Below are positions 880 to 33,953 of a stretch of DNA of 64,000 bases, in pieces. Position 1 is the stretch's first letter. Every line of letters starts with the position of its first letter. The translations under genes were made by a program, and so were the position numbers. Source of the DNA: Deltaproteobacteria bacterium. Lineage in GTDB: Bacteria; Desulfobacterota; Desulfobacteria; Desulfobacterales; SpSt-501. The DNA lies in contig JACRCN010000014.1 in NCBI GenBank assembly GCA_016219005.1, positions 1-64,000 on the forward strand. Reading direction: 5' to 3'. Below the pieces are notes generated by a model. That model did not search any database and was not told where the DNA came from. It worked only from the letters and a program-made list of their open reading frames with translations.

Positions 880-3681
880 TCACATCAGATCCGGCATCCC
901 TTGAATCTCGGAAACCACCTGCCTCTCGATGAACACCTCTTCGCCCTGTCCTGTCATGGCCGTGACATCCCTAAACGTCAGCTGCACCGTGTTCTGGCGG
1001 GTTCCCGCTTGGGCGGCCAAACGGCGGGCCTCTTCCGTCAAGACGCGTTGCACATAACCGTTCGCGGCCTCCATGGCCTGGAATCGCTGATGTCCGGACA
1101 GCCCCTCGATGTAGAACCCACCGGCGGGATCGGGCTTGATGGCCACCTGCCGTTTGATGCTGACCTGGCTGACAATGGCGCCTACCGCATTGGCCACATC
1201 GTGAAAATCCGGCATCACGGCGCGCGCGCCCAGCAAGTGCGCGACCTCGGGCAGGAAATGGCCGATGGGCGCGCCCACGCCGATGATCGGGCGGTGCAGC
1301 TCGAAACGCACCGTAAACGCGTGCCCGCCCCCGTCGAGCAGATTGTCGAGGATCCGGTTGCAGGTGGGGCATGTCGCCGGCGGTGAGTCTGAGTCAATTG
1401 GAGCCAGTTGATGGTGAATGACTTCCAGGGTCAGGCGCCGGACGACCTGGCGAAGCAGATCGGCTTGCAGCTGCTCCGGGGTGGTGCCGGACTGGCCGGC
1501 CATTAACGCCAGAAGGCGGGTGGAAGCCGCGGCATCCCAACGCACAAAACGACCCGTGGCATGCAGAACGTCGGTGGGGGTCAAGCCGCAGCGCTGCACG
1601 GCGAAGATCGACTCCAGCCGCGGCAGCGGCAGGAGTCCGACATGCAACACCTGGGCGGCATCCGCCAGCTCCAACAGGCTGTAGGGTCTCCGGCCGAGCA
1701 GGTCCAGAACACGGTCTTCCAGGTCGCTGCGCGGCTTGTCAAGCCTGCGATGGTTCAAGGTGAACATCTGCGTGGCTTCGGAGCTGCCGCCCAGCCTTCG
1801 TCTGTGGGTCGAGAGATACTCGAACGCCGGATCGAGATCGCGCCCTTGGCGGCCGAGCCAGGCCAATGGCGCCACGCGTCGGGGGCCGATCTGCCACGCG
1901 CCGGCCCGGTAAAGAATGAGGCTGTCTCCGCCCAGACCGGTGGTTTGAATATCCAGAGCCCGGACGTGGGTGCGGATGGTCCCGACACGCGACCCGCTTT
2001 CGCACAGACGCACCCGGCCATTTTCCAGGGCTGCCATATCGGTGGTCGTGCCGCCCATGTCGATCACGACGGCATCGTTCAATCCGGTGAGGTGCCGGGC
2101 GCCGGCCACGCTGGCCGCCGGCCCGGAGAGAATGGTCTCCACCGGGCGCTGTATGGCGAGGTGCTGCGACATGAGGGTGCCGTCGCCGCGCACCACCATC
2201 ACCGGCGCGCGGATGCCCATCTGTTTCAGCACGGCGGCGACATCGTTCAGGAGCCTTGCCAGGCGGGGGACGATTCGGGCATTGTGCACCGCCGTCTGAG
2301 CGCGTATCTTGAAATTGAGCAGCTGCGACAATTCATGACCGCACGAGACAAACCGGCCGGTTTCAGACATGAGAATGCGTTTGACCGCCACCTCGTGATC
2401 CGGGTTGATGGCGCCGGCATATCCGGAGACGGCAAAGGCATCGATCCCCTGGTCGTCGCACATGCGGCGGGCGATGCGGCGGACCTGCGCTTCATCAAGT
2501 GCCGCCAGCTCTTTGCCGGTGATATCCAATCGAGCCGTCAGCACGGCCTGGGGCGCATGAAGCGATTCCTGATTTTCGTCGAAGCCCGGCGGCGGCATGA
2601 GCAGCAGCCCCACCTTCTGCCCTTCGTTTTCGACAATGGCGTTGGTGGCCAGCGTCGTGGAAACCGACACGAGCTGGACCGCCAGGATCTGGCGACTCGC
2701 CAGTCCGGCGAGCGCCTCCCGGATCCCGATGGAAAAATCCCATTTGGTGGTCAGGGCCTTGTTCTTGAGCAGCACCTGCTGCGACCTGAAATCATAGATT
2801 ACGGCATCGGTGTAAGTGCCGCCGGCATCGATGCCCAGGCCGACATGAAGCTCGCCCGAAGGCGCCGCCGGCGCGTGGCCCGGCATCACCACTTTCTGGA
2901 CGGTCCCACCCGCCGGACGTGGCGTCGGCGAAACCGGGTGGGCCGTCAGCCGCCCATGCACCCCATCGAATACGGTGATCTGACCGGGAGGCACCACCAG
3001 GATTTCTTCGGTGGTCTCCGTTTCGCTCAACAGCCTTTGCAGCAGGCGGGTGCTTCCCTGTATCTTTTCGAAGCGCCAGCGGTTCTGATCGGCCAGTTGT
3101 TCGGCATACGTCTCGGCGGCCGTATGGGTGCCCACACCGGTGTCGATGAATGCCGCGCGCTGATAATTGGAGCGCCAGCTGTTGAGAAAAGAAAAAGTGG
3201 CCTCCGCATGGCGCAGCCCATACCGCTGCACCAGTTCATCGAAGTAGACCTTGGTGTCCCCCATCCAGGCATGCCGCCGGTCCGCGGCCTGCGACAGGCT
3301 TTTGGCTTCATACCATCCATGGGAAATATAATAGGTTCCGGGGTATTTTTTGAACTGTTCCTGGTAGCGGTCGTCGCCGCCCAGAAACAAGGCGATGCAA
3401 TCGTGCACGCGGGGGATCGCCAGGGGAATGCCGCGTGCTCGGATGTCGACCGTGCCACAGCCGCAGACGCCGTAGCCGATGACCAGGCGGTCCCATTCAC
3501 CGGTGCGCGAGACCCGATCGATGGCGGCCTGCAGTTTGCGGCGCAGCTTATTCGGGCGTTCATGCAGGCCGGCCGGCAGGTAGTGCGTGCCGATGGTCAG
3601 CGGCAGCTTCTTGGCAATGCCTTCAATGTCCCTGGCCAGCACGCCGCAGGCAACGATATAAACGCGCGCGATTGACTTCAT
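880..3681 (-). CDS. DUF1638 - hydantoinase/oxoprolinase (HyuA-like ASKHA ATPase) fusion protein
   Basis: A 933-residue two-part protein. Residues 1 to about 230 match DUF1638: a GYGVCGCG segment with Cys73 and Cys75, and PRVHDCI with His93 and Cys95, plus Cys12, which together look like a metal or corrinoid-related site. After a Pro/Gly-rich linker (about 250-277) comes a HyuA-type ATPase with phosphate-1 motif GIDAGGTYTD (283-292) and phosphate-2 motif MGGTTTD (542-548); a CxxC pair lies near the C-terminus. HyuA partners such as HyuB are absent. DUF1638 proteins are known beside corrinoid methyltransferases in methanogens, and here an MttB homologue lies directly upstream. ASKHA ATPases of another branch (RamA/RACo C-terminal domain) reactivate corrinoid proteins, so reductive or ATP-driven corrinoid activation is a reasonable inference. 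Function is not established. Confidence 0.85.
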   Translation of the reverse strand: MKSIARVYIVACGVLARDIEGIAKKLPLTIGTHYLPAGLHERPNKLRRKLQAAIDRVSRTGEWDRLVIGYGVCGCGTVDIRARGIPLAIPRVHDCIALFLGGDDRYQEQFKKYPGTYYISHGWYEAKSLSQAADRRHAWMGDTKVYFDELVQRYGLRHAEATFSFLNSWRSNYQRAAFIDTGVGTHTAAETYAEQLADQNRWRFEKIQGSTRLLQRLLSETETTEEILVVPPGQITVFDGVHGRLTAHPVSPTPRPAGGTVQKVVMPGHAPAAPSGELHVGLGIDAGGTYTDAVIYDFRSQQVLLKNKALTTKWDFSIGIREALAGLASRQILAVQLVSVSTTLATNAIVENEGQKVGLLLMPPPGFDENQESLHAPQAVLTARLDITGKELAALDEAQVRRIARRMCDDQGIDAFAVSGYAGAINPDHEVAVKRILMSETGRFVSCGHELSQLLNFKIRAQTAVHNARIVPRLARLLNDVAAVLKQMGIRAPVMVVRGDGTLMSQHLAIQRPVETILSGPAASVAGARHLTGLNDAVVIDMGGTTTDMAALENGRVRLCESGSRVGTIRTHVRALDIQTTGLGGDSLILYRAGAWQIGPRRVAPLAWLGRQGRDLDPAFEYLSTHRRRLGGSSEATQMFTLNHRRLDKPRSDLEDRVLDLLGRRPYSLLELADAAQVLHVGLLPLPRLESIFAVQRCGLTPTDVLHATGRFVRWDAAASTRLLALMAGQSGTTPEQLQADLLRQVVRRLTLEVIHHQLAPIDSDSPPATCPTCNRILDNLLDGGGHAFTVRFELHRPIIGVGAPIGHFLPEVAHLLGARAVMPDFHDVANAVGAIVSQVSIKRQVAIKPDPAGGFYIEGLSGHQRFQAMEAANGYVQRVLTEEARRLAAQAGTRQNTVQLTFRDVTAMTGQGEEVFIERQVVSEIQGMPDLM

Positions 3682-3760: not shown

Positions 3761-5197
3761 TTACTTCCAGCCTTTCTGCATCCGGTCCAATTCCCTTATC
3801 TGCTCCGCCGCCAGCGGAGCCGGGCGATGCTTCATCTTCGCAAGCGTGCTTTGCTGCAGGCGTTGCTCGAAGCGCTTCGATCCCGCCTCTTCCCACTGCG
3901 CGATCACCATGCGCTCAAAAATATCGGAGTATTTCATTTTCTTGAAATTCTGCATCGTATGAGCCTGCTGCAGATAGTGCCCGCCCGGACCCACCTTGTG
4001 GATGAGGTCCAGCGCCAGGGTCTGCTCGCAGACCTCGATGCCCTCCATGAAATGGCGGATGTTGTCGACGATATCGTGCACCAGTACCATGAATTCGGGG
4101 CTGGCCATCGAGCCGTGGTCCATCCAGCTGCTGCAGTCGTGGACCAGGCCGGAGCCCACTGCGGCCGCCGTCAGGCATTGCCAGGCGGCCTCGGCGCCGG
4201 CCTGTGCGTCGCAAAACTTCGCGTCCGTCGCCCCCGCCGTGCCGAAAAAGGGCAGTCGATAGTGCTGGGCCATCTGGGCCAGGGCGCCGGTCATCAGGCT
4301 CATCTCGATGGCGCCGTAGGAAAAGATGGTGCTGCGCATGTCCATGATGGTCGCGAAGGCCCCGTAGATGAAAGGCGCCCCGGGATTGACCAGCTGGTGA
4401 AGGACCAGACCGCTCAAGGATTCGGCGCTCGCCTGCACGATCGCCCCGGCAAGGGTCGCCGGCGAGGAGCCGCAGCACTGCGGCGCCGGGAAATTGATCA
4501 GCGGGATCCGCTGCTCGGCGCAGTAGATCAGCTTGTCGACGGCCGGATCGAAATAGACCAGCGGCGAGATCGGCTCGGTGTACTGCACCACGTAGGGCGC
4601 CGTGTCGAAGTTCTCCTTGCCGCCGCACAACAGCAGCGCCATCTCATAAATGTCCCGGACGCTGCCGGCGTCCTTGCAGCAGAAGACCAGGGGCTTTTCA
4701 CAGAATTCCATTACGTTGCGGGCGATCACCCGGTCGGCGATGTCCGCCGGCACGTCAGCGGCCATGCCGATGGTCATGCACCACTGGAAATTGGGCAGGG
4801 CGTCGCAAAGTGCCGCCGTCACCTTGACATGCTCGCTGGTGAAGCGGCTGCGGGTTTGCGTTAGGGGGTCCAGGTAGTCGATGCAGTCGAGGCTGGGACC
4901 GAAAAAACTCTTGTCCCGTTCCAGAAAGACGGTGCGCTTGCCCGTGCGCGCGCCAAGCACCAGTCGCGAAGGCGCGTTGCGGATCGCCGCCTCCACCATG
5001 AAACCGGGGATCTTCACCCGGTCGCCCCGGACTCGGGCGCCGGCGCTTGAAAGAACCTCCAGCGCCCGCGCGTGGGTGATCTTGATGCCGGTGCGCTCCA
5101 GCACGTCCAGCGTGGCGGCGTGGATCTGTTCGATCTGGTCTGCGTTGATCACCTGCAATGTGGGCTTGAAAGACAGTGTGTCGGTCGTCATTCCCAT
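3761..5197 (-). CDS. MttB-superfamily corrinoid methyltransferase (non-pyrrolysine)
   Basis: A 478-residue member of the trimethylamine methyltransferase family (PF06253). The start ATG at 5197 follows GGGAG by 7 bases; a second ATG is two codons in. The reading frame is uninterrupted, with no in-frame amber codon, so it belongs to the non-pyrrolysine group whose characterised members (MtgB and relatives) demethylate glycine betaine or other quaternary amines. The C-terminal HKVGPGGHYL and HTMQNFKKM segments are typical. It is upstream of the DUF1638-HyuA fusion in the same direction. A corrinoid protein for it is not adjacent; the one at 17858-18481 may serve both methyltransferases. The exact substrate cannot be told from sequence alone. 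Confidence 0.9.
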   Translation of the reverse strand: MGMTTDTLSFKPTLQVINADQIEQIHAATLDVLERTGIKITHARALEVLSSAGARVRGDRVKIPGFMVEAAIRNAPSRLVLGARTGKRTVFLERDKSFFGPSLDCIDYLDPLTQTRSRFTSEHVKVTAALCDALPNFQWCMTIGMAADVPADIADRVIARNVMEFCEKPLVFCCKDAGSVRDIYEMALLLCGGKENFDTAPYVVQYTEPISPLVYFDPAVDKLIYCAEQRIPLINFPAPQCCGSSPATLAGAIVQASAESLSGLVLHQLVNPGAPFIYGAFATIMDMRSTIFSYGAIEMSLMTGALAQMAQHYRLPFFGTAGATDAKFCDAQAGAEAAWQCLTAAAVGSGLVHDCSSWMDHGSMASPEFMVLVHDIVDNIRHFMEGIEVCEQTLALDLIHKVGPGGHYLQQAHTMQNFKKMKYSDIFERMVIAQWEEAGSKRFEQRLQQSTLAKMKHRPAPLAAEQIRELDRMQKGWK

Positions 5198-5260: not shown

Positions 5261-5653
5261 TCATCGAGTCGTCACCACCGGGCAATGGGCATTGAGCACG
5301 ACGTATCGGGCATTCGAACCGAAAACCAGCTTGCCGACCCGGGATAACCGTTTGATGCCGACGATGATGTGATCCGCTTTTTGCTCCTGGGCGAACCGGA
5401 CGATATCCTCCCCGGGCATGTTGCCGCGTACCAGAAGGTGGGTTTCACAGGCAACCTGGTTTTTCGCAAAAAGCTCTTCGGCAAAGCTCAACTGCTTCCG
5501 GGCTTCGATGATTTTCTCTTCCGGGCTGTCTTCGCCGCCCACCTGAGAGTTAACCACCATCACTGCGGCCTTGAACGCCTTGGCGTACGTCACGGCCAGC
5601 TTCAAGGCGCTCAGGCACGCCTTGGATCCTTCGTATCCGACCACGATCTTCAT
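5261..5653 (-). CDS. Universal stress protein, single UspA domain
   Basis: I place the start at 5653, where ATG overlaps the TGA of the upstream YbaK-like gene (ATGA) and AAGGA lies 8 bases before it; a longer reading from 5692 would overlap that gene more and adds an unrelated leader. The 130-residue product begins MKIVVGYEGS, typical of the first UspA strand, and ends in the ATP-binding-type region HIIVGIKRLSRVGKLVFGS, followed by NAHCPVVTT. Usp proteins of this type bind ATP or related nucleotides and act in stress adaptation. Its position between a YbaK domain and a methyltransferase suggests it is carried along in the operon; no specific partner is evident. Confidence 0.88.
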   Translation of the reverse strand: MKIVVGYEGSKACLSALKLAVTYAKAFKAAVMVVNSQVGGEDSPEEKIIEARKQLSFAEELFAKNQVACETHLLVRGNMPGEDIVRFAQEQKADHIIVGIKRLSRVGKLVFGSNARYVVLNAHCPVVTTR

Positions 5654-6126
5654 GGCATCCGTCCTTGTGCGGAATCCATCTTCGGTTGGCACAGCTTCTT
5701 TAAGTCCCGGGATCTCACCTTGTAGGATTTATGATGGACGCCGGGGTTGAAATAGACGAATTCTTTTTGGGTGATGTCCGGGTCCAGGTAAATCGGCAGC
5801 GGCACCCATTGGCCGAACGGCGGGACGCAGCCGACCTCGCAGCCCACCTTTTCCAGGACCTCCTCCGGCTTGGCAAAGGAGACCTTCTTGGTGCCGATGC
5901 CGGCGGCCGCCTTCTTCCAGTCCACCTTCTTGTCGCCCGGAAGCACGAGCACGACCATCTGCTTTTCGCGGGTCAACAGGACAAGGGACTTGACGGTCTC
6001 GGATTCGCTGACCCCCAGTGCCGCGGCCATGGTGGGATTGGTGTAGACCGGTTCGTGCTCGAAGACCTGATAATCAATTTGCTGCTCTTTCAAAATGCCG
6101 ATGATCTTTTCTTCTACTGCTGACAT
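5650..6126 (-). CDS. YbaK/EbsC-family aminoacyl-tRNA deacylase-like protein
   Basis: A 158-residue single-domain protein of the YbaK/ProX family, which hydrolyse mischarged aminoacyl-tRNAs (for example Cys-tRNA-Pro). Visible family features are EHEPVYTNP, a VKSLVL strand, LPGDKKVDWKK with the conserved lysine region, and VGCVPPFGQ near the C-terminus. The start ATG is preceded by GGAGGG with 5 bases of spacing. It overlaps the following UspA gene by four bases, so the two are translationally coupled. Which mischarged tRNA is the substrate cannot be decided. Confidence 0.88.
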   Translation of the reverse strand: MSAVEEKIIGILKEQQIDYQVFEHEPVYTNPTMAAALGVSESETVKSLVLLTREKQMVVLVLPGDKKVDWKKAAAGIGTKKVSFAKPEEVLEKVGCEVGCVPPFGQWVPLPIYLDPDITQKEFVYFNPGVHHKSYKVRSRDLKKLCQPKMDSAQGRMP

Positions 6127-6152: not shown

Positions 6153-6183
6153 GAAAAGAGACCGGCTTCCCTGGAAGCCGGTC
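6153..6183 (-). terminator. Rho-independent terminator after the EMO-like gene
   Basis: A perfect 11-bp stem (GACCGGCTTCC / GGAAGCCGGTC) with a 2-base loop begins within the stop codon of the Fe-S oxidoreductase and is followed on the minus strand by TCTTTTC. The stem is strong and the T-tract moderate. Confidence 0.7.
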
Positions 6184-8197
6184 AGGCCGTCACCTCGTCG
6201 ACGATTTCGGCGATATCCTTGACGCTCCTGGGGGTCTGGCAATCGCGCAGCCCGTCGGAGAGCATGGTGGCGCAGAACGGGCAGGCGGTGGCGATGAGGG
6301 CCGCGCCGCTGGCGATCACCTCCTCGGCTCGTTCGATGTTGATGCGCTTGCCGATAGTCTCTTCCATGAACATGCGGCCGCCGCCGGCACCGCAGCAGAA
6401 GCCCTTCGCGCCGTGCCGGCGCATCTCGGCCAGACGGATGCCCGAGCCCGCGGCGCGCAAGAGATCGCGCGGCGCATCGTAAATCCCATTCCAGCGCCCC
6501 AGGTAGCAGGAGTCATGGAAGGCCAAAGGCCCGGCGGCCGAGCCGGTTGCTTCCAACTCTTTAATTCCCTTGACACTCTTCAGGCGCCCCTGCCTGAAAA
6601 GCGCGCGCAGCCATTCGCTGTGATGCACCACCGGATAAGCGGCCCCGAACTGCGGATATTCGTTTTTGATGATATTGAAGCAGTGCGGGCAGCCGGTGAG
6701 GATTTTTTGGGGCTTGTACCGGTTGAGCACTTCGACGTTCTGCTTGATCAGCGTCTGGGCCAGATACTCGTTGCCGGCCCGGCGCGCCAGATCGCCGTTG
6801 CAGGCCTCTTCCGGGCCCAGAATGGCGAAGTCCACACCGGCGCGCTGCAGCACGCGCGCCATGGCCTGGGCGATTTTTTTTCCGCGGTCGTCGAAAGCGC
6901 CGGCGCACCCCACGAAATATAATATCTCGGCCTCCGGGCGGTCGCACATCAGGGGAACGTTCATCCCCTTGCTCCAGTCGGCCCGGGTGTCAGCGCTGAA
7001 GCCCCAGGGGTTGGCCTGGTTTTCCAGGTTGGTGAAAGTCGCCTGCATCTCCGGCGGGAAGCTCGCCTGCATGAGCACCTGATGCTTGCGGGTTTCCAGG
7101 ATGAAATCCAGCTGCTCGATGTTGACCGGGCAGATGTCCTCGCAGGCCCGGCAGGTGGTGCAGGACCAGATCACATCGGCGGTGATGGGGGAGCCTTCCC
7201 GGACGATGGGGTCGACGGCGTCGCCCTTGCCGGCTAGAATCGCGTCGGCGTGGGCCAGGAGGTCCCGCTTGAAGTCGTGGATCACCTTTTTCGGCGACAA
7301 CGGCTTGCCCGTCTGATCGGCCGGGCACTGCTCCTCGCAGCGGCCGCACTCGGTGCAGGCGTAGAGGTTGAGCACGTTTTTCCAGTTCAGCTCGCTCACC
7401 TTGCCCAGGCCGAAGGTCTCCGCGCTCTCATCCTCGATGTCGGTCTTGGGCATGGCCTTTTCCCGCTGCAGCGGCTTGAGAAAGACGTTGGGCGCGGCGG
7501 CAAGCAGGTGCAGGTGCTTGGAGCCCGGAATGTAAACCAGGAATCCCAGGATGGTGGCCATGTGCAGCCAATAGGCGATCTCATAGCCTGCCGTGATCTG
7601 CCCGGCGCCAAGCCGTTCCAATCCCAGCAGGCCGATCCAGAGGCCGGATACGGGGAAGGCCGCGACGTGGACGGGCAGCAGCGTCTGGAAGGCATTGATG
7701 AACTGGAAGGTGACGATGATCACGCAGGTGAATAGAATGATCAGGTTGGCATCGGTATTCAGGGTCAGATACTTGGGCCGTTCCACGACCCGGCGGTAAA
7801 CGGCATAGGCGAGGCCGATCAGCACCAGGGCCGCCAGGACGTCGGCCACGAAGAGATAGCCGCCGTAAACGGCCGGGAACCATTTGGCCGGGTCGAAGGC
7901 CGGGCACACCCCCTTGAGCATCAGCTCCAGCGAGTGGGGCTGTACTGCCAGAAACCCGAAGAAAATCAAGGTGTGCGCCACACCCGGCAGGGCCTTGCGG
8001 CGCACGTTGGACTGCCCCACCACGTCGGTGAGCAGCACCACCAGGCGCTCCTTGACGCGGTCGAGCGTGAAAGGCAGCTTGCCCCGAACCGAGCGTATGA
8101 GTCGGAAAAGCCGCCGGCTGCGTATGAAGAAAACGGAGAAGGCGGCGCTGAGAGCCGCCAGCATCAGAACCGATTTGACAATGACATACGAATCCAT
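6182..8197 (-). CDS. Membrane-bound Fe-S oxidoreductase of the ETF:menaquinone oxidoreductase (EMO/DUF224) class
   Basis: I choose the ATG at 8197 (671 residues) because GGAG precedes it by about 6 bases; the ATG at 8224 has no ribosome site. The N-terminal third holds about five to six membrane helices with histidines that could ligate heme b, as in nitrate-reductase-gamma-like domains. Then come two [4Fe-4S] motifs, [12 protein letters not shown] and [12 protein letters not shown] (about residues 281-356), and two CCG domains ([10 protein letters not shown]...CPHC and HDSCYLG...CCGAGGG) toward the C-terminus. This architecture is that of HdrD/GlpC-like proteins and of EMO described in Geobacter and Syntrophomonas, which pass electrons from ETF to menaquinone. 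Its place immediately downstream of etfBA supports that role here: draining electrons from amine dehydrogenases into the quinone pool. Confidence 0.9.
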
Positions 8198-8327
8198 AAA
8201 AACTCCACTCCGGAGAGCCATCACTTATTCCGGATCCGTCGAGCCGCTAATGCCTGGATCGTCTGGGGTTCTCGGGCCGCAGCGCTATGGTAGCACACGA
8301 TCCTCTTGACCGACCATCTCTTCAGAT

Positions 8328-8351: not shown

Positions 8352-9308
8352 TTATTTTTGCGTGAGGGCTTCGGTCAGCATCGGCACGACTTCAAACAGG
8401 TCGCCGATGATGCCGTAATCGCATTTCTCGAAGATGGGCGCATCCTTGTCGGTATTGATGGCAACGATGACCTTGGAGGTCTTCATGCCGGCAAAATGCT
8501 GGACGGACCCGGACAGCCCGCAGGCGATGTAAAGTCTGGGGCTGACCGTCTTGCCGGTCTGACCGACCTGCATGGAGTGCGGGGCGAAGCCGGCATCCAC
8601 CGCGGCGCGCGAGGCCCCCACGGCCCCTCCGAGCGCCTGGGCGCACGCTTCCAGGATTTTATAGTTTTCCGCCGAGCCGATCGGCCGTCCGCCGGTTATG
8701 ATGATGCCGGCCTCGGCCAAATCGATCTTCCCGCCGCCGGCTTTCCTGACTTCGAGCACCCTGACCCGTCCGGGGTCCTGAACCGTAACGGTGAGGGGGA
8801 CGATCTCCGGGCGGACGGCGGCCGGTTGCGCTTCCACGGCATTGGGCCGCAGGGCGCAGAGCATCACGGAGGCTTTCATCCGGATGGTGGCGACGGTCTT
8901 GCCGGAGAAGTGCGACTTGCATACCGTCTGCCGGGCGACGTCCACGGAAATGCAGTCCGAAGCCAGCGGCAGTTTCAAATAGGCCGCCAGGCGGGCGAAC
9001 AGATCGCGGCCCGGTGTCGTTGCCAACCCCAGCAGGGCGTTCAACGACAACTTTTCGACGGCGGCCGCCAGCGCGCGGGCGCGCGCATCCGGGCTTTGAT
9101 CCAGGTCGGCGCCCTCGGCCGTCAGCGGTACGATTTTGTGGACGCCGTACGGGGCCAGGGCTTCCTGGGCCGCTTCCGCCGAGCCGTCCAGCAGCAGGGC
9201 CAAAAGGGTGTTTTCACCGCCGCCGCCTCTGGCGGCGGTGATCACTCCGAAATTGGCTTCCTTGACTTTTCCGCCCTCGGTTTCAATCCATATTCCGATA
9301 GTGGCCAT
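8352..9308 (-). CDS. etfA: Electron transfer flavoprotein alpha subunit (first ETF pair)
   Basis: A 318-residue EtfA. The C-terminal FAD-binding domain is clear: [10 protein letters not shown], then [41 protein letters not shown] and CDYGIIGDL. The usual GGRG...GEN element reads [10 protein letters not shown] here, a small deviation. It pairs with EtfB encoded 12 bp upstream. ETFs carry electrons from flavin dehydrogenases; upstream is a dimethylglycine/sarcosine dehydrogenase and downstream a membrane ETF-quinone-type oxidoreductase, so this pair probably links those two. Whether it is bifurcating cannot be decided by eye. Confidence 0.95.
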
Positions 9309-9320
9309 GCATTCATGCTC

Positions 9321-10091
9321 CTAGATCACTTTTTCGACGTTTCTAAGTATGTGCACCAGCGCCTGGGCGGCTTCCCGGGACGGGCCCGGAATTATTTTGG
9401 CGCCGCTGCGGTCCGGCGCCTTCTCCAGCTTGACCAGCTCGATCCTGGCGGCGGCGGCCGACAGGCCTAAATCGGCCAACGTCATTTGCTTAACCTCTTT
9501 TTTCTTGGCTTTCATGATATCCGGAAACTTCGGGTACCGGGGCTCGTTGAGCCCCTTGGTGGCGCCCAGCACGCAGGGCAGCCCCGCCTCCAGCACTTCG
9601 CGCGACCCGCCGCCGATCTCCCGTTCCACCACGGCCTTGCCGTCGCGAAGCTCCATCTTGAGGATCTCGTTGACCACCGGCAGGCTCATGGCCTCCGCCA
9701 ACCGGTAGGCGGTTTGAAAGCCTTCGGTATCCACGGCGACCTTGCCGGTGAAAATCAGATCGGGTTTGCCGTCCTTTTCGATGGCGGCCTTCAGCGCCTG
9801 GCTGGTGATTTCGCTGTCCAAAAACTGGCTCTCCACTGTGACCAGGATGCCGCGGGTGGCCCCCATGGCCATGGCGCTGCGCAGCGTCGCCATGGCCGCC
9901 TCCTTGCCTACGCTGACGACCACCACTTCGCCGCCCTGGCTCTCCATCAGGCGCACGGCCTGCTCGACGGCGTACTCGTCGTAAGGATTGGCGATGAACT
10001 TGCAAACGGCATCGTCGAACCCGTTCGCACCCGCCGTTTTGATGTTGGCGGCCGTGTCCGGAACGTGTTTGACGCACACATAAATCTTCAT
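9321..10091 (-). CDS. etfB: Electron transfer flavoprotein beta subunit (first ETF pair)
   Basis: A 256-residue EtfB beginning with KIYVCVKHVPDTAANI and containing the family segments NPYDEYAVEQA, VVVSVGKEAAMATLRSAMAM, FTGKVAVDTEGFQ and LPCVLGATKGLNEPRYP. It is the first gene of the etfBA pair, 47 bp after the dehydrogenase gene and in the same direction. EtfB contributes the AMP/second-flavin site. The TEGFQTAYRLAE loop is ordinary for the family, and nothing is truncated. Confidence 0.95.
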   Translation of the reverse strand: MKIYVCVKHVPDTAANIKTAGANGFDDAVCKFIANPYDEYAVEQAVRLMESQGGEVVVVSVGKEAAMATLRSAMAMGATRGILVTVESQFLDSEITSQALKAAIEKDGKPDLIFTGKVAVDTEGFQTAYRLAEAMSLPVVNEILKMELRDGKAVVEREIGGGSREVLEAGLPCVLGATKGLNEPRYPKFPDIMKAKKKEVKQMTLADLGLSAAAARIELVKLEKAPDRSGAKIIPGPSREAAQALVHILRNVEKVI

Positions 10092-10137: not shown

Positions 10138-12555
10138 TCATGCTTTCATGCGCTCGTTGCCGGGGTCATACAGCGGCATGGCGGCCACGGTGGCTGCCAG
10201 TTTCCGGCCCAGGACTTCCACTTCCAGCCGGGTGCCGGGAGTGGCCAGCGCCGGCGCGACATAGCCGAAGGCGATGCTCTTGCCGACGCGGTGGCCGAAG
10301 CCGCCGGAGCTTGTCATGCCCACGCGCTTTTCACCGTGGAAGATCGGGTTGTAGCCCCACGGGTCGGATTCATCCGCCGCCACCACCAGACAGACCAGTT
10401 TTTGTTTGATGCCGGCCTTCTTCTGCTTTTCCAGGGCGGATTTCCCGATAAAGTCTTTGTCCCACTTGACGGTCCAATCCAGGTGGGTTTCGAGTGGGGT
10501 GTGGTGCAGGTTCATCTCGCTCTTCCAGGCGAGATAGCCTTTTTCCAGGCGCATGGAATCCATGGCGTGCAGGCCGAACATCTTCAGATTGAACTTCTGC
10601 CCGGCGGCCGAAAGCGTCTGGTACACGGCGACCTGCTGCGAAACGGGATGGAAGATCTCGTATCCCAGCTCGCCCACGTAGTTCATGCGGTTGACCCGGC
10701 ATCGGGTGCGCCCCACGTATAGTTCCCGGCTGGTGGCGAAAGGAAACGCCGGGTTGGAGACATCGCCGTCGGTCACCGCCGCCAGCAGATCGCGGCTCTT
10801 GGGGCCGGCGATGATCAAACACCCCATGGCATAGGTCAGGTCTTCCATCTGAACGGACCCGTCGGCGGGCAGATTCTGCATCAGCCAGTGCTGATCGTGG
10901 CGTTTGCCCAGGCTGGCCGTCACGCACAGGTAGTCATTCTCCTTGAGCTTGGTCACGGTCATATCGGTTTTGAAGACGCCCTTTTCGGTCAGCATGGGCG
11001 CCAAGGCGATGCGGCCCGTTTGGGCCGGCACCCGCTGGCAGGTAAGCTGGCCCAGCCAGGCTTCAGCGCCCGGCCCGCTGATCCGGGTCTTGGCAAACCG
11101 GGTCAAATCCAGCAACCCCACGTGATTCATCACGTGGCGGCACTCTTCGGCCACGTGATTGAAGGCGTTGGAACGCCGCCAGGACGGTTTCTCATAGCGG
11201 TCGGCCTCCGTCCGGGTGAAGTAATTGGGGCATTCCCACCCGAAGTAGTCGCCGAACACGGCGCCGGCCTGCTTCTGATATTCGTAGATGGGGCTTACGC
11301 GGTTCGGTCGGGCGGCGTCCCGGAATTCATTGGGGAAGAAGATGCTGTAGAGACGCGGGTAGGTGTCGGCGATCTTCTCGTGATTATAGGCCCAGGTCGC
11401 ATAGCTCCCGTAACGGCGGCTGTCCACGGACCACAGATCGATTTCCGGCTCGCCTTCCATGATCCAGCCGGCGAGGTAGTGGCCGATGCCGCCGGCCTGG
11501 GTGATGCCGAAGCTGTAGCCGCAAGCATGGAAGAAATTCTTCAACGGATAGGCCGGTCCGACCAGCGGGTCGCCGTTGGGGGTGTAGGTGATGGGGCCGG
11601 CGGTCACGTGCTTGAAGCCCGTCTCCCCCATGATGGGCATCCGGAAGATGCCGTGCTCGATGTTTTCGGCGATGTTGTCGATGTCCGGAGTCAGTTCGGC
11701 CTGGGCGTAGTCCCAGGGCACGCCCTTGGGGTACCACTGCTTGCCGTTTTTCTCGTACATGCCGAGGAGCAGGCTGTCCATTTCCTGGCGGATGTAGATG
11801 GAGCGGTCCGGATCGCGTACCAGCGGCAGGGGGGTCTTGCGGTTCTTGACGGCGTCGATGGCCTCGAAGAGGATGTGCGTGTGCTCGATGGCAATGGAGG
11901 GTATTTCAAGCCCCACCATGCGCGCCACCTCGGGGGCCCACAAACCCGCGGCATTGACCACATGTTCACAGGTGATATCGCCCTTGTCGGTATGCACCAG
12001 CCATTCGTCATTGGCCTTGCGGCGGATGCCGGTGACCCGGGTGTGGGTGTTGATTTCGGCGCCGAGCTTTTTGGCGCCGATCGACATGGCGAGCGTGATG
12101 CTGCTGGGGTCCACGTCGCCGTCATCGGGCCAATAAAGACCGCCCATGAGACCCTCCACGTTCATCAGGGGGTGCAGTTGGGCGATCTCGGAGGGGGTCA
12201 CCCGCAGGACGTTCAACCCCAGACAGCGGTTCATGCTGTAGTAATAGCCCAACTCGTCCATCCGGTCGGGGTTGTCAGCGGTGCGAATGGAGCCGGTGGT
12301 ATGCCAGCCGGTGGACTGGCCGGTCTCGGCTTCGAGTTTCTGATACAACTCGATGCTTTTCATGTTGACCTGGGTGCAGTAGTAATTGGAGTGGTAAAAG
12401 GAACAGTTGCCCGCCGCCATCCAGGTGGAGCCGGACGTCAGCTCGTGCTTTTCAACCAGGACGACCTCCTTCCACCCATATTTGGCCAGGTGATAGGCCA
12501 CGCTCACACCGATGGCTCCGCCTCCAATGACCAAGACTCTAGCCTGCTTCCTCAT
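10138..12555 (-). CDS. Dimethylglycine/sarcosine dehydrogenase-type flavoprotein (DAO + GcvT domains)
   Basis: An 805-residue fusion of an N-terminal FAD oxidoreductase (dinucleotide motif GGGAIG at 11-16) with a C-terminal aminomethyltransferase-like (GcvT) half from about residue 430, the layout of dimethylglycine and sarcosine dehydrogenases. Such enzymes oxidise an N-methyl group and transfer the one-carbon unit to tetrahydrofolate, passing electrons to ETF. AAGGAG precedes the start by about 10 bases. In mammalian enzymes FAD is bound covalently to the histidine of a TWHAAG motif; here the motif reads STWMAAG, with Met46, so covalent attachment at that place is not possible. His55 is nearby. 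The gene sits between the liv permeases and etfBA, matching a catabolic role. Confidence 0.92.
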   Translation of the reverse strand: MRKQARVLVIGGGAIGVSVAYHLAKYGWKEVVLVEKHELTSGSTWMAAGNCSFYHSNYYCTQVNMKSIELYQKLEAETGQSTGWHTTGSIRTADNPDRMDELGYYYSMNRCLGLNVLRVTPSEIAQLHPLMNVEGLMGGLYWPDDGDVDPSSITLAMSIGAKKLGAEINTHTRVTGIRRKANDEWLVHTDKGDITCEHVVNAAGLWAPEVARMVGLEIPSIAIEHTHILFEAIDAVKNRKTPLPLVRDPDRSIYIRQEMDSLLLGMYEKNGKQWYPKGVPWDYAQAELTPDIDNIAENIEHGIFRMPIMGETGFKHVTAGPITYTPNGDPLVGPAYPLKNFFHACGYSFGITQAGGIGHYLAGWIMEGEPEIDLWSVDSRRYGSYATWAYNHEKIADTYPRLYSIFFPNEFRDAARPNRVSPIYEYQKQAGAVFGDYFGWECPNYFTRTEADRYEKPSWRRSNAFNHVAEECRHVMNHVGLLDLTRFAKTRISGPGAEAWLGQLTCQRVPAQTGRIALAPMLTEKGVFKTDMTVTKLKENDYLCVTASLGKRHDQHWLMQNLPADGSVQMEDLTYAMGCLIIAGPKSRDLLAAVTDGDVSNPAFPFATSRELYVGRTRCRVNRMNYVGELGYEIFHPVSQQVAVYQTLSAAGQKFNLKMFGLHAMDSMRLEKGYLAWKSEMNLHHTPLETHLDWTVKWDKDFIGKSALEKQKKAGIKQKLVCLVVAADESDPWGYNPIFHGEKRVGMTSSGGFGHRVGKSIAFGYVAPALATPGTRLEVEVLGRKLAATVAAMPLYDPGNERMKA

Positions 12556-17857: not shown

Positions 17858-18481
17858 TCAGGCCATCAGCTTCTTGACCAGCTTGACCGCGCCGGGAGCA
17901 TCCGGGCTGTAGCCGTCGGCGCCGATCTGATCGGCGAATCCCTGGGTCACCGGTGCCCCGCCGATGATCGTGCGGCTGGCCAGCCCGGCCTCCTTCACCG
18001 CCGTCACCGTGGTCTGCATGGCAGGCATGGTGGTGGTCAAAAGCGCCGAAAGCGCGATCACGTCGGCCTTCTTCTCCGCGGCCGTCTGCACGAACTTCTC
18101 GCTGGCCACGTCCACCCCCAGGTCGACCACGTCGAAGCCGGCCCCCTCCATCATCATCGCCACTAGGTTCTTGCCGATGTCGTGCAAGTCCCCCTTGACC
18201 GTGCCGATCACCACCCGCCCCCGCGACTGCGCCTGGCCGGCGGAGAGCAGCGGCTTGAGGATCTCAAGTCCCGCCTTCATCGCCTGTGCCGCCATGAGCA
18301 TCTCGGGCACGAAGAGCTCCCCGGCGCTGAATCTCTCGCCCACCGTGTCCATCGCGCCGATCAGGCCCTGGTTGAGGATGGCGCCGATCTCCGTGCCCGC
18401 GGCCACCTCCGTCTGCGTCAACTGCTTGACCTTGTCTTCGTCGAAGGCCATCACCGCGTTGAAAATGTCCTGTATCGCCAT
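17858..18481 (-). CDS. Corrinoid (B12-binding) protein partner of MttB-type methyltransferase
   Basis: A 207-residue two-domain corrinoid protein: an N-terminal helical cap (about 1-85) and a Rossmann B12 domain with the His-on motif D98-x-H100-x-x-G103 (GDLHDIGKNL), SALLTTTM near 145 and a GG near 174. This is the MtbC/MttC/MtgC type, which accepts the methyl group from MttB-family enzymes on Co(I). It lies 69 bp after the methyltransferase at 18551-19972, the standard order for a methyltransferase-corrinoid pair. The methylcorrinoid:tetrahydrofolate methyltransferase that would complete the system is not in the window. Confidence 0.95.
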   Translation of the reverse strand: MAIQDIFNAVMAFDEDKVKQLTQTEVAAGTEIGAILNQGLIGAMDTVGERFSAGELFVPEMLMAAQAMKAGLEILKPLLSAGQAQSRGRVVIGTVKGDLHDIGKNLVAMMMEGAGFDVVDLGVDVASEKFVQTAAEKKADVIALSALLTTTMPAMQTTVTAVKEAGLASRTIIGGAPVTQGFADQIGADGYSPDAPGAVKLVKKLMA

Positions 18482-18550
18482 TGCGTCCTCCTTCCATATC
18501 AGCGTAGGTTGTCAGTGTCAGAGATGCGTCGTGGGGCCACCCGACGGCGG

Positions 18551-19972
18551 TCATGCCCCATACTTGCGCTCGATGTAACGCCGCAGCGCCTTGTCCGTCT
18601 CGGCGGGCAGTTGCGGTTCCTGGTAGTCCTTGAGAATCTCCTTCCACTTCCGGTTGGCGCGCCGATCGATGGACATGGCCCCTTTTTGCTGCCAATTGGC
18701 GTAGGTATCCTTCTCTTCCACTATGTTGGCGTAGATCTCCTTGCGGAAATTCTGGAAGGTGTGCTTCTGGGTCAGGTATTCACCGCCGGGGCCGACCTGC
18801 CGGATCAGCTCGAAGGCCAGCCGATCCTCGTCGGCGCGCTCGCCGCGCTTGATGCGCTTGCACATGCCGCAGATCTCGTCGTCGAGGACGAATTTTTCGT
18901 AAGAGGAAACCATGTAGCCTTCGAGGATGCCGGCGGAATGCAGCACGAAATGGACTCCGGACAGTGTCGCCATCAGCTGGCTCATCATGGCTTCGAAGCC
19001 GGCCTGGGCATCCGGCAGCTTGGCGTCGGACAGTGCGCCGCCGCCGCGGCTGGGGATCCCGTAAAAGCGCGCCATCTGGGCCGTGGCGGCCGTGTTCACG
19101 GCCATTTCGGGTGCGCCGATGCTCAGGGTGCCGTAGCGCATGGCCGAGCATGAAGAGGACCCGGCGAAGACCACCGGAGTGCCCTCGCGGATCAACTGGG
19201 TCAGGACGATACCGGCCAGCACCTCTGTGTTTTGAACCACCAGGGTGCCTTCCATGGTCACCGGCGCGGTGGCGCCGGCAATGGACAGGGAGGAGATCAG
19301 CTGGGGCATGCCGGACTTGGCGTACTCCATGATCGCGCCCAGCATGCGGTCGTCATAGGCGAGCGGCGTGCGCGCGCACAGGATGCTGATGATCGGCCGC
19401 TTTTCAGCCAGCTCGGCCTCGCTGCAGCCAAAGAGGATGGCGGCCATTTCGACGGTCTCCCGGGCGGCCTCGGCACCGATGGCCCCGCCCATGAAGGGCT
19501 TGTCCGAATAGCGCATGGAAGCGTACATCATCTCCGCGTTGCGCCGTTCGTGGGGGATGTCGTTGGGCTCGGCCATCATGCCGCCGGTGATGTCCATGCT
19601 GCGGCTGGCATGGCCCAGTTTGACGAAATTGATGTAATCCTCGAGCGTGGACGCCCGGCGGCCGCGATCCAGGTCCGTCACAAAGGGCGGGCCGTAACAG
19701 GGAATGAAGGCGATATGCTCGCCGCCGATGACGACGCTCTTATCCGGATTGCGGGCCTGCAGGGTGTATTGCGCGGGGGCTTTGGCCACTTGTGCTTCCA
19801 CCAGCCGGGGGGGGAAGAATACGCGCTGGCCCTCAACCTTGCACCCGGCCTTCTTCAGGACCTCGAGCGCCGGCTCAAAGCTGAAGTCGACGCCGACGGT
19901 TTCGAGCAGGCGCAGACACGTCTCGTGAATACGCCGGACTTCTTGCTCCGAGAAATATTCAAAATACCGCAT
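18551..19972 (-). CDS. MttB-superfamily methyltransferase, likely glycine-betaine type (MtgB-like)
   Basis: A 473-residue MttB-family protein without any in-frame amber codon, hence non-pyrrolysine. The C-terminal signature IRQVGPGGEYLTQKHTFQNF matches the family. Compared with the copy at 3761-5197 it is clearly diverged along its length, so the two are paralogues with possibly different substrates. Its gene is followed by its corrinoid partner and the liv importer, which makes uptake plus demethylation of a quaternary amine such as glycine betaine, proline betaine or carnitine the likely job. The residue distinguishing these substrates cannot be assigned by eye. Confidence 0.9.
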   Translation of the reverse strand: MRYFEYFSEQEVRRIHETCLRLLETVGVDFSFEPALEVLKKAGCKVEGQRVFFPPRLVEAQVAKAPAQYTLQARNPDKSVVIGGEHIAFIPCYGPPFVTDLDRGRRASTLEDYINFVKLGHASRSMDITGGMMAEPNDIPHERRNAEMMYASMRYSDKPFMGGAIGAEAARETVEMAAILFGCSEAELAEKRPIISILCARTPLAYDDRMLGAIMEYAKSGMPQLISSLSIAGATAPVTMEGTLVVQNTEVLAGIVLTQLIREGTPVVFAGSSSCSAMRYGTLSIGAPEMAVNTAATAQMARFYGIPSRGGGALSDAKLPDAQAGFEAMMSQLMATLSGVHFVLHSAGILEGYMVSSYEKFVLDDEICGMCKRIKRGERADEDRLAFELIRQVGPGGEYLTQKHTFQNFRKEIYANIVEEKDTYANWQQKGAMSIDRRANRKWKEILKDYQEPQLPAETDKALRRYIERKYGA

Positions 19973-27402: not shown

Positions 27403-28626
27403 ATGTTTCGACGATTCAAACCCCTTTGGGGAAAGAAGCCCGGTCTCAAATCCACCTATGACGCGGTGATCATCGGAGGCGGACTGCACAGTCTGGCAAC
27501 CGCCTATTATCTTGCCAAAGAGCAGGGTATGAGCAACGTGGCGATCCTGGAGAAGAACTTCATCGGGTTCGGCGGGGCCGGCCGGAACACCGCCATCGTG
27601 CGCGCCAATCAGCGCACCCAGGAAAACGTGCCCCTTTACAAGGAGGCCCTGGATCTGTGGCCCATCCTGACCAAAGAGCTGGATTACAACCTGATGTTCA
27701 ACAACTGCGGCAATTTGAACCTGATGCACAGCGAGGCGGCCATGAACGCGGCGCGCATGAACGTCTGCACGGCGCAGTTTCATGGTGTCGAAAGCCATCT
27801 GCTGGACCCCCGGCAGATCAAGGAACTGGAGCCGGCCATCAACATCTCCCCGGACATCACCTACCCCATTCACGGCGCCATGTTCCATCCGCCCGGCGGC
27901 GTCATCCGGCACGACGCGGTGGTCTGGGGGTTGGCCAAGGGGGCGGCCGCGCACGGGGTGCATATCCATCAGCAGACCGAGGCTACGGCGATCCACACCG
28001 ACGGCGGTAAAATCACCGGTGTGGAAACCCACCGCGGCCGGATCAACAGCCCCCGGGTGCTGGTTTCCGCCGGAGGCTATTCGGCCGGCATCATCAACAA
28101 GATGATGGGCGTCAAGCTGCCCATCAGCGTCCTGACGATTCAGGCCATGGTCACCCAGCCGCTCAAACCGGTGCTGCACCACGTGGTCTCCTCGGGCATG
28201 TACCACGCCTATGCCAACCAGACCTTGAAGGGTGAAATCGCCACGGGCGCCCACATGGATCAATGGCCCAACTACACGACCCTCACCACGGCCCACTACA
28301 TCAAACACCAGGCCGAGGCGCTGTCCGAGTTTCTGCCTTTCCTGCGGGGTGTGAAGTTCATGCGCCATTGGGCCGGGCTGGCCGATATGACCCCCGACAT
28401 GGCGCCCATCATGGACGGCAACGATCCCGTCGAGGGGTTTTACATGAACTGCGGCTGGGGATATTTCGGCTTCAAGTCCTGCACGGCCGCCGGCCGGCAC
28501 ATGGCGTCCTTCATCGCCAAGGGCGAGTGCCCGGAGCGGCTCAAGCCCTTCGGCCTGCGGCGCTACGAAAACCATCGGCTGATGGGCGAGACCGCCGCCC
28601 TGGTCACCTATACCCCGGACAACTAA
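27403..28626 (+). CDS. soxB: Heterotetrameric sarcosine oxidase beta subunit
   Basis: A 407-residue DAO-type flavoprotein: dinucleotide motif VIIGGGLHSLATAYYLA at 22-38 and the segment VIRHDAVVWG at 168-176. In known heterotetrameric enzymes the His of this RHDAVAWG motif binds FMN covalently; here it is His170 and conserved. The subunit oxidises sarcosine. The start is preceded by a G-rich AGGGGGCAGG. soxD follows after 12 bp and then soxA and soxG, the complete standard order. The enzyme classically uses O2, which is surprising beside so many anaerobic markers. Confidence 0.95.
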   Translation: MFRRFKPLWGKKPGLKSTYDAVIIGGGLHSLATAYYLAKEQGMSNVAILEKNFIGFGGAGRNTAIVRANQRTQENVPLYKEALDLWPILTKELDYNLMFNNCGNLNLMHSEAAMNAARMNVCTAQFHGVESHLLDPRQIKELEPAINISPDITYPIHGAMFHPPGGVIRHDAVVWGLAKGAAAHGVHIHQQTEATAIHTDGGKITGVETHRGRINSPRVLVSAGGYSAGIINKMMGVKLPISVLTIQAMVTQPLKPVLHHVVSSGMYHAYANQTLKGEIATGAHMDQWPNYTTLTTAHYIKHQAEALSEFLPFLRGVKFMRHWAGLADMTPDMAPIMDGNDPVEGFYMNCGWGYFGFKSCTAAGRHMASFIAKGECPERLKPFGLRRYENHRLMGETAALVTYTPDN

Positions 28627-28638
28627 GGAGATCGGAAC

Positions 28639-28899
28639 ATGGCACTGACGATTACCTGCCCCGTTTGCGGCAAGCGCAACGGGTACGAATTCCGGTATGG
28701 CGGCGAGGACAAGGGCCCGCGGCCGGTTGAGGAAGGGATGACACCGCGCAGCTGGTGCGACTACGTCCACATGAACGCTTGTGTCGCCGGCGTGCAAAAG
28801 GAGTGGTGGTGCCACAAGAACGGGTGCGGCGCCTGGTTCACCATCCACCGCAACACCTTAACCAACCTTGAAGTGGAAGGGGTGGAGGTGACATCATGA
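28639..28899 (+). CDS. soxD: Heterotetrameric sarcosine oxidase delta subunit
   Basis: An 86-residue SoxD. It begins ALTITCPVCGKRNGYEF and ends with WWCHKNGCGAWF, giving the Cys-Cys and His-Cys zinc ligands of the family. SoxD is a small zinc-containing structural subunit that caps the SoxA/SoxB assembly. Its stop overlaps the start of soxA (ATGA), so translation is coupled. Confidence 0.95.
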   Translation: MALTITCPVCGKRNGYEFRYGGEDKGPRPVEEGMTPRSWCDYVHMNACVAGVQKEWWCHKNGCGAWFTIHRNTLTNLEVEGVEVTS

Positions 28900-31811: not shown

Positions 31812-31826
31812 TGTGAGGTGGCAACC

Positions 31827-32507
31827 ATGACGCGTATTGAGAGACGATCACCCGTTCAATTCAAAGGACGCATCAAGAAATGGGAGGTGCGCGACAACTG
31901 GACCGTGGCGCTGGCCTACGAGGACGAGGGCCAGGGACCCTTCCTCGTGGACCTCTCCCACATCACCCGTTGGGACCTTCAGGACAAAAGCCTCTCCCGG
32001 TTCAACCAGCCTCCGGGGAAAGAGGTCCCTGAATTACCCGGCTCATGCCGGCTGCAAGACGGCGTCTTGGTCACCCGTATGAACCGCACTCAGGCGGTGA
32101 TCTGGCATCTGTTGTCCGGCGCCCCGGACCTGCCGGCGGAATCGGGCTACACCGATGTGAGCGATGCGACGATCTGCCTGGCCCTGTTCGGCCCGAACGC
32201 CCTGGCCGTGGCCGAGAAGCTCTGCGCGCTGGATTTCCTCGACCCCGGCAAACAGGTGCCTTTCCTGCTGCAGGGTCCCTTTTCCCACGTCCCCTGCCAG
32301 TTGGTGCTCATGGAAAGGGGACGGGGGTTTGACGGGGGGCTGCTGCTCACCTGCTCCCGCGGGTATGCGGAGAGCATGGTCCACGCTATCCTGGGGGCCG
32401 GCGCCGAGTTCGGGCTCAAGCCGGCCGGCAAAGAGCGCTTTACCGATTGGCTGGGCACGGCTTTTCCCGCGCAAGACACGTCCAGCCGCAAGGGCAAACC
32501 GGCCTGA
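31827..32507 (+). CDS. soxG: Heterotetrameric sarcosine oxidase gamma subunit
   Basis: I choose the ATG at 31827, because GAGGTG lies 6 bases before it; a GTG at 31818 falls within that ribosome site. The 226-residue SoxG has the GcvT-like fold of the family, with CLALFGPNALAVAEKL and CQLVLMERGRGFDGGLLLTC as recognisable segments. SoxG completes the SoxABDG tetramer. It follows soxA by 15 bp. Conservation of this subunit is usually weak, and the identification rests partly on the operon. Confidence 0.88.
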   Translation: MTRIERRSPVQFKGRIKKWEVRDNWTVALAYEDEGQGPFLVDLSHITRWDLQDKSLSRFNQPPGKEVPELPGSCRLQDGVLVTRMNRTQAVIWHLLSGAPDLPAESGYTDVSDATICLALFGPNALAVAEKLCALDFLDPGKQVPFLLQGPFSHVPCQLVLMERGRGFDGGLLLTCSRGYAESMVHAILGAGAEFGLKPAGKERFTDWLGTAFPAQDTSSRKGKPA

Positions 32508-32572
32508 GGCTGTTTGATGAACCCCGCTTTCTAATTGTACAATAAACCATCGAAAGACAAGGAGGGTGCATT

Positions 32573-33910
32573 ATGGACAAGAAGTACGATGCCATCATCA
32601 TCGGGGCCGGCGTGATCGGCTGCCCCATTGCCTATGAACTGGCGAAGAAGGGGTATAAAACGCTCACCGTGGACAAGCTGGCCGATGCCGGCGAGGGCTC
32701 CACGGCCGGCTCCTGCGCCATCGTGCGCGCCCACTACTCAACGGTGGACGGCGTCGCCATGGCCTACGAAGGCTTCAAATACTGGCTCGATTGGAGGAAC
32801 TACCTCGGCAACGTGAAGGACGAAAAGGGGCTGGCCAAGTTCATGAACACCGGCTCGGTCCTGCTTAAATCCAAGGGCCACGACTGGCGCAAGGTCAAGC
32901 GCAACTACGACGTGGTCGGCGTGAAATATGAAGAGTGGGGTCTCGACAAGATCAAGATGCAGATCCCCGTGTATGACCTGCATGAGTTCTGGCCGGTCAA
33001 GCGGCCCGAAGACCCTTCCTTCTTTGACGATCCCACCAACCTCCTCGAAGGCGCCATTTTCTGTCCCGAGGGCGGCTACGTCAACGACCCGGTGCTGTCG
33101 GCTCACAACATCATGCGCGCCGCCGAAACCAAGGGCGCCGAGTTCATGTTCAAGGTCGAAGTGACGGGCATCCGCAGCCAGAACGGCAAGGTTCAGGGCA
33201 TCACCCTGAAGGACGGCCGCCGGTTCGACGCCCCCATCGTGGTCAACGTGGCCGGTCCGCACTCCTTCAAGATCAACCAGATGGCCGAGGGGGTCTGGCA
33301 GGGCTGCAACATCAAGACCAAGTCCCTGCGGCACGAGGTGATGCACTGCCCCTCGCCCGAGGGCTATGACTATTTGAACGACGGCTACCACACCTCCGAC
33401 GGCGATCTCGGGATCTATTACCGCCCCGAGGTGGGCAACATGTTCCTGATCGGCAGCGAAGACCCCAAGTGCGACCGCCAGGAATGGGTGGATCCGGATG
33501 CGTTTTACGCCGGCCAGGGCGGTCGCGGCCGCGACAATCAGTTGAGCGAAGCACAGTGGAAGGCGCAGTGCTACCGGCTGGGCCGGCGCGTCCCCAGCCT
33601 GCAGGTGCCCAACCAGCCCAAGGGCGTCTGCGATCTTTACGACTGCTCCGACGACTGGATCCCCATCTACGACAAATCGGACCTGGGCGGGTTTTACATG
33701 GCCGTCGGTACCAGCGGCAACCAGTACAAAAACGCTCCGGTGGTGGGCCACATGATGGCCGAGCTCATCGACACCTGCGAAAAGGGGCTGGATCACGACA
33801 AGAAGCCCCTGCAGTACAAACTGCCGCACATCGGCCGCCTGATCGACGTAGGCTTTTTCTCGCGCAAGCGCGAAATCAACCGCAGCTCCAGCTTCTCGGT
33901 CAACGGATAA
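32573..33910 (+). CDS. FAD-dependent amine oxidoreductase (DAO family)
   Basis: A 445-residue single-domain DAO flavoprotein with the ADP-binding motif DAIIIGAGVIGCPIAYELA near 6-24 and the C-terminal FAD signature GGFYMAVGTSGNQYKNAPVVG. It has no GcvT half, unlike the 10138-12555 enzyme. RBS AAGGAGG lies 8 bases before the ATG. It is encoded 65 bp after soxG and its transcript ends in two hairpins; ETF genes follow. Related enzymes oxidise sarcosine, dimethylglycine, glycine or other N-methyl amines. The substrate is unassigned, but co-location with soxBDAG and a second ETF pair points to another step in amine demethylation. Confidence 0.9.
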   Translation: MDKKYDAIIIGAGVIGCPIAYELAKKGYKTLTVDKLADAGEGSTAGSCAIVRAHYSTVDGVAMAYEGFKYWLDWRNYLGNVKDEKGLAKFMNTGSVLLKSKGHDWRKVKRNYDVVGVKYEEWGLDKIKMQIPVYDLHEFWPVKRPEDPSFFDDPTNLLEGAIFCPEGGYVNDPVLSAHNIMRAAETKGAEFMFKVEVTGIRSQNGKVQGITLKDGRRFDAPIVVNVAGPHSFKINQMAEGVWQGCNIKTKSLRHEVMHCPSPEGYDYLNDGYHTSDGDLGIYYRPEVGNMFLIGSEDPKCDRQEWVDPDAFYAGQGGRGRDNQLSEAQWKAQCYRLGRRVPSLQVPNQPKGVCDLYDCSDDWIPIYDKSDLGGFYMAVGTSGNQYKNAPVVGHMMAELIDTCEKGLDHDKKPLQYKLPHIGRLIDVGFFSRKREINRSSSFSVNG

Positions 33911-33939
33911 TTTCATCCGCCTCTGGCGGATGAAATTAT
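33907..33939 (+). terminator. Perfect 15-bp hairpin at the end of the sox operon
   Basis: ATAATTTCATCCGCC, a 3-base loop TCT and the exact complement. The first bases overlap the stop codon of the flavoenzyme gene. The T-tract after it is missing, so it is a weak terminator or mRNA 3' end protector in series with the next hairpin. Confidence 0.6.
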
Positions 33940-33953
33940 CTAGGGGTAATAAC

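Follow-up and report, generated by a model that had tools for sequence, protein, structure and literature searches.

A single 933-aa protein encoded in the window (the whole stretch of 64,000 nt that was analysed) consists of a DUF1638 domain followed by a HyuA-type ASKHA ATPase. The two parts are functionally linked: in different genomes they are found fused, fused in the reverse order, or separate in one operon. Both were known beforehand; the new element is their fusion, undescribed in the open-access literature searched, where the separate parts are described. The fusion is associated with corrinoid systems, and it probably acts as an ATP-dependent accessory factor that helps to activate or repair corrinoid methyltransferase proteins, working together with RACo.

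The fusion gene is located on the minus strand, 79 bp downstream of a gene for an MttB-superfamily methyltransferase (Table 1), directly after it as the initial annotation had stated. It lies near the end of a same-strand run of ~20 kb, which reaches a second MttB gene and a corrinoid protein gene at 17858-19972. Between the fusion with its adjacent MttB and this second MttB, the run encodes a branched-chain-type ABC transporter, a DAO-GcvT demethylase, EtfAB and an Fe-S oxidoreductase. Judging from these known families, the run is probably a gene cluster for the demethylation of quaternary or tertiary amines. Two smaller genes, for a universal stress protein (5261-5692) and a YbaK-type tRNA-editing protein (5650-6126), lie between the Fe-S oxidoreductase and the first MttB; a YbaK-like ORF is also present near two operons of other genomes in which the DUF1638 and HyuA parts are split (L154, L155). 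On the plus strand, 27403-35838 encodes a sarcosine-oxidase-like set, with FAD oxidoreductases and the large ORF 28896-31811, together with another EtfBA pair. This region faces the minus-strand run, so that two demethylation gene sets are opposed.

Table 1. Features of the fusion gene and its neighbourhood, in window coordinates.
Feature	Coordinates	Strand	Basis
DUF1638-HyuA-type ATPase fusion	880..3681	-	933 aa; Pfam above curated cut-offs, 76 distinct full-length homologous fusions, AlphaFold2 model
HyuA-type ASKHA ATPase half, residues 279-933	883..2847	-	PF05378/PF01968, fold match, phosphate loops
DUF1638 domain, residues 1-250, two-lobed alpha/beta	2932..3681	-	PF07796 E 4e-38, model, residue conservation
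MttB-superfamily (non-pyrrolysine) methyltransferase	3761..5197	-	PF06253 E 5e-91; TIGR02369 below equivalog cut-off
Fe-S oxidoreductase (CCG/Fer4, HdrD/TfrB-like)	6182..8224	-	PF02754, PF13183
EtfA and EtfB electron-transfer flavoprotein genes	8352..10091	-	EtfA PF00766/PF01012; EtfB by sequence and order
FAD (DAO)-GcvT demethylase	10138..12555	-	PF01266/PF01571
Corrinoid (B12-binding) protein, MtbC/MttC type	17858..18481	-	PF02310, PF02607
Second MttB-superfamily methyltransferase	18551..19972	-	PF06253 E 4e-158

The reading frame of the fusion has no internal stops, and the Pfam domains of both parts are found within it, as expected if DUF1638 is truly joined to a HyuA-like ASKHA ATPase. 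The AlphaFold2 model of the whole protein has a pLDDT of 87.8 and a pTM of 0.76. Chance or misassembly is excluded, since type strains, and Desulfosarcina widdelii in its complete chromosome, carry homologous fusions of 880-1090 aa. When named genomes were scanned using nine fusions as queries, the fusion was found in Thermodesulfobacteriota, Planctomycetota, Spirochaetota, Omnitrophota, Armatimonadota, candidate division WS1, Zipacnadia, Kiritimatiellota, Lentisphaerota, Latescibacterota and Abditibacteriota. Of 146 same-order relatives, 73 carry DUF1638 and about a dozen the fusion. In the tree of the ATPase half, nearly all fusions fall into a single group with good support, within which DUF1638 has been lost here and there. 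The family of fusions is old and recurrent. One protein with the two domains in the opposite order (L043) is sister to a stand-alone HyuA of its own genome and, because of this grouping, most likely arose separately.

Some related sequences depart from this architecture. In one genome (G040, L157:6271-9296), DUF1638 and HyuA are encoded in two frames that overlap, and the fusion gene looks frameshifted. An acidobacterial sequence (L101:9833-12433) starts with a 4Fe-4S ferredoxin-like stretch that replaces the first DUF1638 lobe and is joined to the later part of the fusion. A true exchange of domains is possible, but the sequence was left out of account as probably truncated or chimeric. A HyuA-like protein of ~570 aa (G000:C52:84267-85256; L162:8241-9962) is present in most of the 142 same-order genomes searched, and is ~33% identical to the first 330 residues of the ATPase half.

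The DUF1638 domain is the only one in the genome. The Pfam match (PF07796) covers residues 35-218 with an E-value of 4e-38 and 131.2 bits, against a cut-off of 27, and the model of this N-terminal part of the protein (pLDDT 93.6) exhibits a two-lobed alpha/beta shape. Cys73, Cys75, His93 and Cys95 had been put forward as a metal or corrinoid-contact set. Two of these, Cys73 and Cys95, hold throughout, but Cys75 is not kept: among the 76 fusions, position 75 is R in 43 and K in 16, and Cys is rare. Position 93 is His in most fusions (68/76) but mostly Asp in stand-alone DUF1638 copies. Conservation points to Cys12, His40, Cys73, Asp94 and Cys95 as a better candidate set, these residues being invariant or nearly so in the 76 fusions and in 19 stand-alone copies. 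In the model, they directly follow strands 1, 2, 3 and 4 in the first lobe, and this topology suggests that they meet at the usual ligand edge of the sheet. When the model was compared with known structures by Foldseek and VIA-align, no relative reached significance (best E 5.6e-3, Z ≤8.8, in the noise band), and no match was found in a profile search of solved structures with DUF1638. The hydantoin racemase 2eq5 falls inside the noise band (Z 8.3, rmsd 3.4 over 101 residues). A role like that of the Asp/Glu/hydantoin racemases was rejected because the second-lobe Cys is absent; racemases have one catalytic Cys per lobe, whereas no column of residues 96-250 contains Cys in more than 20% of the fusions.

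The second half is recognized by Hydant_A_N (PF05378; residues 282-439, E 3e-31, 108.9 bits vs. a cut-off of 25.2) and Hydantoinase_A (PF01968; residues 460-601, E 2e-31, 110 bits vs. 22.9). Only the first half of PF01968 aligns with the fusion; its second half is unmatched. The two phosphate loops, DAGGTYTD and DMGGTTTD, are present, with loop residues at or near invariance in 52 fusions. Two other sites were discarded: a CPxC motif around residues 771-774, considered for metal binding, is kept in under half of the fusions, and Cys447/His449, as a defining site, loses its Cys in several stand-alone HyuA copies.

The best fold match of the ATPase half is the beta subunit of acetone carboxylase (Z 30.1). 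Over ~480-520 residues the fold is shared with this protein, acetophenone carboxylase, caprolactamase and N-methylhydantoinase (Z 17.6-30.1, 18-25% identity). The activator of 2-hydroxyacyl-CoA dehydratase (4ehu) gives a Z of 17.8 and the diol dehydratase reactivase (2d0o) a Z of 15.5. Diol dehydratase reactivase and MutL/GlmL are ASKHA proteins serving corrinoid enzymes, the adenosylcobalamin mutases and dehydratases. The likeness of the ATPase half to them is at the superfamily level, and the sequence matches to MutL/GlmL are weak. That the closest folds are carboxylase and hydantoinase subunits, not reactivases, counts against a role in corrinoid upkeep, as does the lack of a clear structural relative for DUF1638, and favors its main rival, a substrate-side enzyme belonging to one methylated-substrate pathway. 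The HyuA half would then spend ATP on an N-methylated amide, lactam or carbonyl compound, phosphorylating or opening it, and DUF1638 would replace HyuB. In Desulfobacterota the fusion does adjoin DAO-GcvT demethylases and MttB, and in Ca. Formimonas warabiya the induction of the glycine betaine MttB cluster is accompanied by that of a HydA-type protein (PMC9768040). This HyuA-type protein, on which DUF1638 is not reported, clusters with MttB, a corrinoid protein and MTII, like the HyuA genes of several loci described below (L154, L155, L158-L161). The fusion differs, on the other hand, from the carboxylase and hydantoinase systems: the second half of PF01968 is unmatched, the equivalog cut-offs are missed by far, and a HyuB or alpha partner is lacking. 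The only HyuB of the genome is on another contig (C11), next to its own conventional HyuA, which agrees with the initial annotation on the absence of a HyuB partner beside the fusion. With the gene neighbourhoods of other genomes also taken into account, the substrate-side role appears rather unlikely.

These neighbourhoods tie the fusion to corrinoid proteins and their activator. One cassette (L071) has the order fusion-PAS/sigma54-MttB-corrinoid-MTR-RACo. In Desulfofustis glycolicus (L125) the order is MTR-corrinoid-UroD-RACo-DUF6951-fusion, and a third cassette (L115) is composed of fusion-corrinoid-RACo. The HyuA half alone shares a cassette with RACo in L092. These last three are UroD/MTR/corrinoid/RACo cassettes without MttB, contrary to what a substrate-side enzyme would predict. 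The DUF6951 protein (112 aa, L125:9628-9966), encoded between RACo and the fusion, is a possible further part of the corrinoid system. In two genomes, the split pair occurs in one operon (L154, L155: MTR-corrinoid-MttB-corrinoid-DUF1638-MttB-HyuA-GntR-MttB), and in four others (L158-L161) HyuA without DUF1638 is found among MttB genes. In a genome of the same genus (L054), genes for an MTR-type protein, a corrinoid protein and a ferredoxin-type RACo lie downstream of a stand-alone DUF1638. Homologues of the DAO-GcvT demethylase directly adjoin the fusion in seven other loci.

The survey of proximity called for by the initial annotation gave a positive result. MttB lies within 10 kb of 9/50 fusions (0.96 expected from genome-wide counts), RACo of 4/50 (0.36 expected) and corrinoid proteins of 3/50 (0.49 expected); probabilities based on these counts are optimistic because MttB genes cluster and the genomes are related. 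A point against the role in corrinoid upkeep is that, in the named-genome scan, the flank examined lacks genes for MttB, corrinoid proteins, MTR, RACo and UroD at 51 of the 72 fusion loci. At the genome level, the fusion tracks the corrinoid protein and its activator rather than one substrate enzyme, since RACo is present in 47 and a B12-binding_2 protein in 48 of the 50 fusion genomes, and 15 lack any MttB, an absence that also argues against the substrate-side role. The three genomes without RACo look like draft MAGs. The proposed link to corrinoid methyltransferases is supported by gene order, by the split versions in one operon and by the co-occurrence of DUF1638 and RACo.

This co-occurrence bears on the suggestion that the fusion is an activator in place of RamA/RACo. 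No PF14574 (RACo) match is found within the window, as first noted, but the genome-wide search revealed three RACo/RamA-type loci, on contigs C3, C75 and C37, the last in a UroD/corrinoid neighbourhood. A RamA homologue elsewhere in the genome is the first half of what had been named beforehand as evidence against such a role; the other half is hydantoinase activity alone. Among 292 Planctomycetota genomes drawn evenly, RACo occurs in 31/31 genomes with DUF1638 vs. 62/261 others (Fisher P 7e-18, kinship ignored). In all 31, the RACo matches include one of the lower-scoring class (about 160-275 bits), and in seven of them DUF1638 lies ~1 kb from RACo (G230, G248, G291, G304, G307, G354, G456). 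A RACo-independent reductive activator, in which the fusion itself would pass an electron to Co(II) with ATP, is consistent with an ASKHA ATPase near MttB, with the lack of RACo in the window and with conserved Cys/His residues that could hold a metal or a cluster. RACo, RamA and AcsV are, like the fusion, ASKHA ATPases of corrinoid methyltransferase systems, and they co-occur with it. RACo, however, has an N-terminal 2Fe-2S ferredoxin domain (C39..C45..C48..C65 in the alignment) and PF14574, and neither was found in the fusion with Pfam. The profile of the HyuA half matches RACo over 51 columns only, at the phosphate loop (probability 56%). Given also the three RACo genes of this genome and the presence of RACo in nearly all fusion genomes, such an activator is very improbable. 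The module most likely works with RACo and not instead of it, because RACo is present in this genome, in nearly all fusion genomes, in shared cassettes and in every sampled Planctomycetota genome with DUF1638.

Experimental data on stand-alone DUF1638 proteins point the same way. PGA1_c13340 of Phaeobacter inhibens and SPO2162 of Ruegeria pomeroyi have the same domain and the same tie to RACo/RamA and corrinoid; they are unfused and differ from the present protein by the attached HyuA-type ATPase. The set Cys12/His40/Cys73/Asp94/Cys95 is likewise kept in the stand-alone relatives tested. DUF1638 mutants of P. inhibens cofit with a split B12 methionine synthase and a RamA-like protein, and the phenotype is rescued by methionine; for alpha-Proteobacteria, the same co-occurrence of DUF1638 with the activator as in Planctomycetota is reported (Price et al., PMC5764234). 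The need for DUF1638 in B12-dependent methionine synthesis, where no methylated amide, lactam or carbonyl substrate is involved, is a further point against a substrate-side enzyme. In R. pomeroyi, growth on N-osmolytes raises DUF1638 and RamA in parallel (PMC12478193). Neither DUF1638 nor a HyuA domain is mentioned for the mlp gene clusters (PMC10418091).

A factor for corrinoid loading, synthesis or the lower ligand, which would insert the cofactor into the corrinoid protein or mature it, would show the same genomic association, and the conserved pocket residues of DUF1638 and the ATP loops would suit it as well; gene order alone cannot separate loading from repair. B12 synthesis was, however, judged unlikely for DUF1638, the synthesis genes being probably essential in P. 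inhibens and DUF1638 not (PMC5764234), and this role is improbable. As an accessory factor working with RACo, the fusion would act as follows. DUF1638 would dock on the corrinoid protein or its cofactor via the edge bearing the conserved Cys, His and Asp residues, and the ASKHA ATPase would spend ATP on a conformational or ligand-removing step. An oxidised or wrongly ligated corrinoid would thereby be brought to a state reducible to Co(I) by RACo/RamA, and RACo would complete the reduction. The repair or unliganding step before RACo is a conjecture. A bolder, tentative version is that DUF1638 and the HyuA-type ATPase may constitute a second ATP-driven machine of corrinoid maintenance, chemically distinct from RACo, that clears Co(III) or alkylated dead-ends via the Cys/His/Asp site in more than eight phyla.

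In anoxic sediment, glycine betaine and related methylamines are broken down by corrinoid methyltransferase systems. To our knowledge, RACo/RamA is the only case in which the upkeep of corrinoid proteins as active Co(I) is understood. Mutants of DUF1638 have a clear phenotype, and its partner can be named from the fusion, the reversed fusion and the operons that the two share: it is a HyuA-type ATPase. This partner is usually annotated as a hydantoinase, and such annotations in MttB operons may mislead. With the fusion, the question of DUF1638 becomes testable with one protein and ATP.
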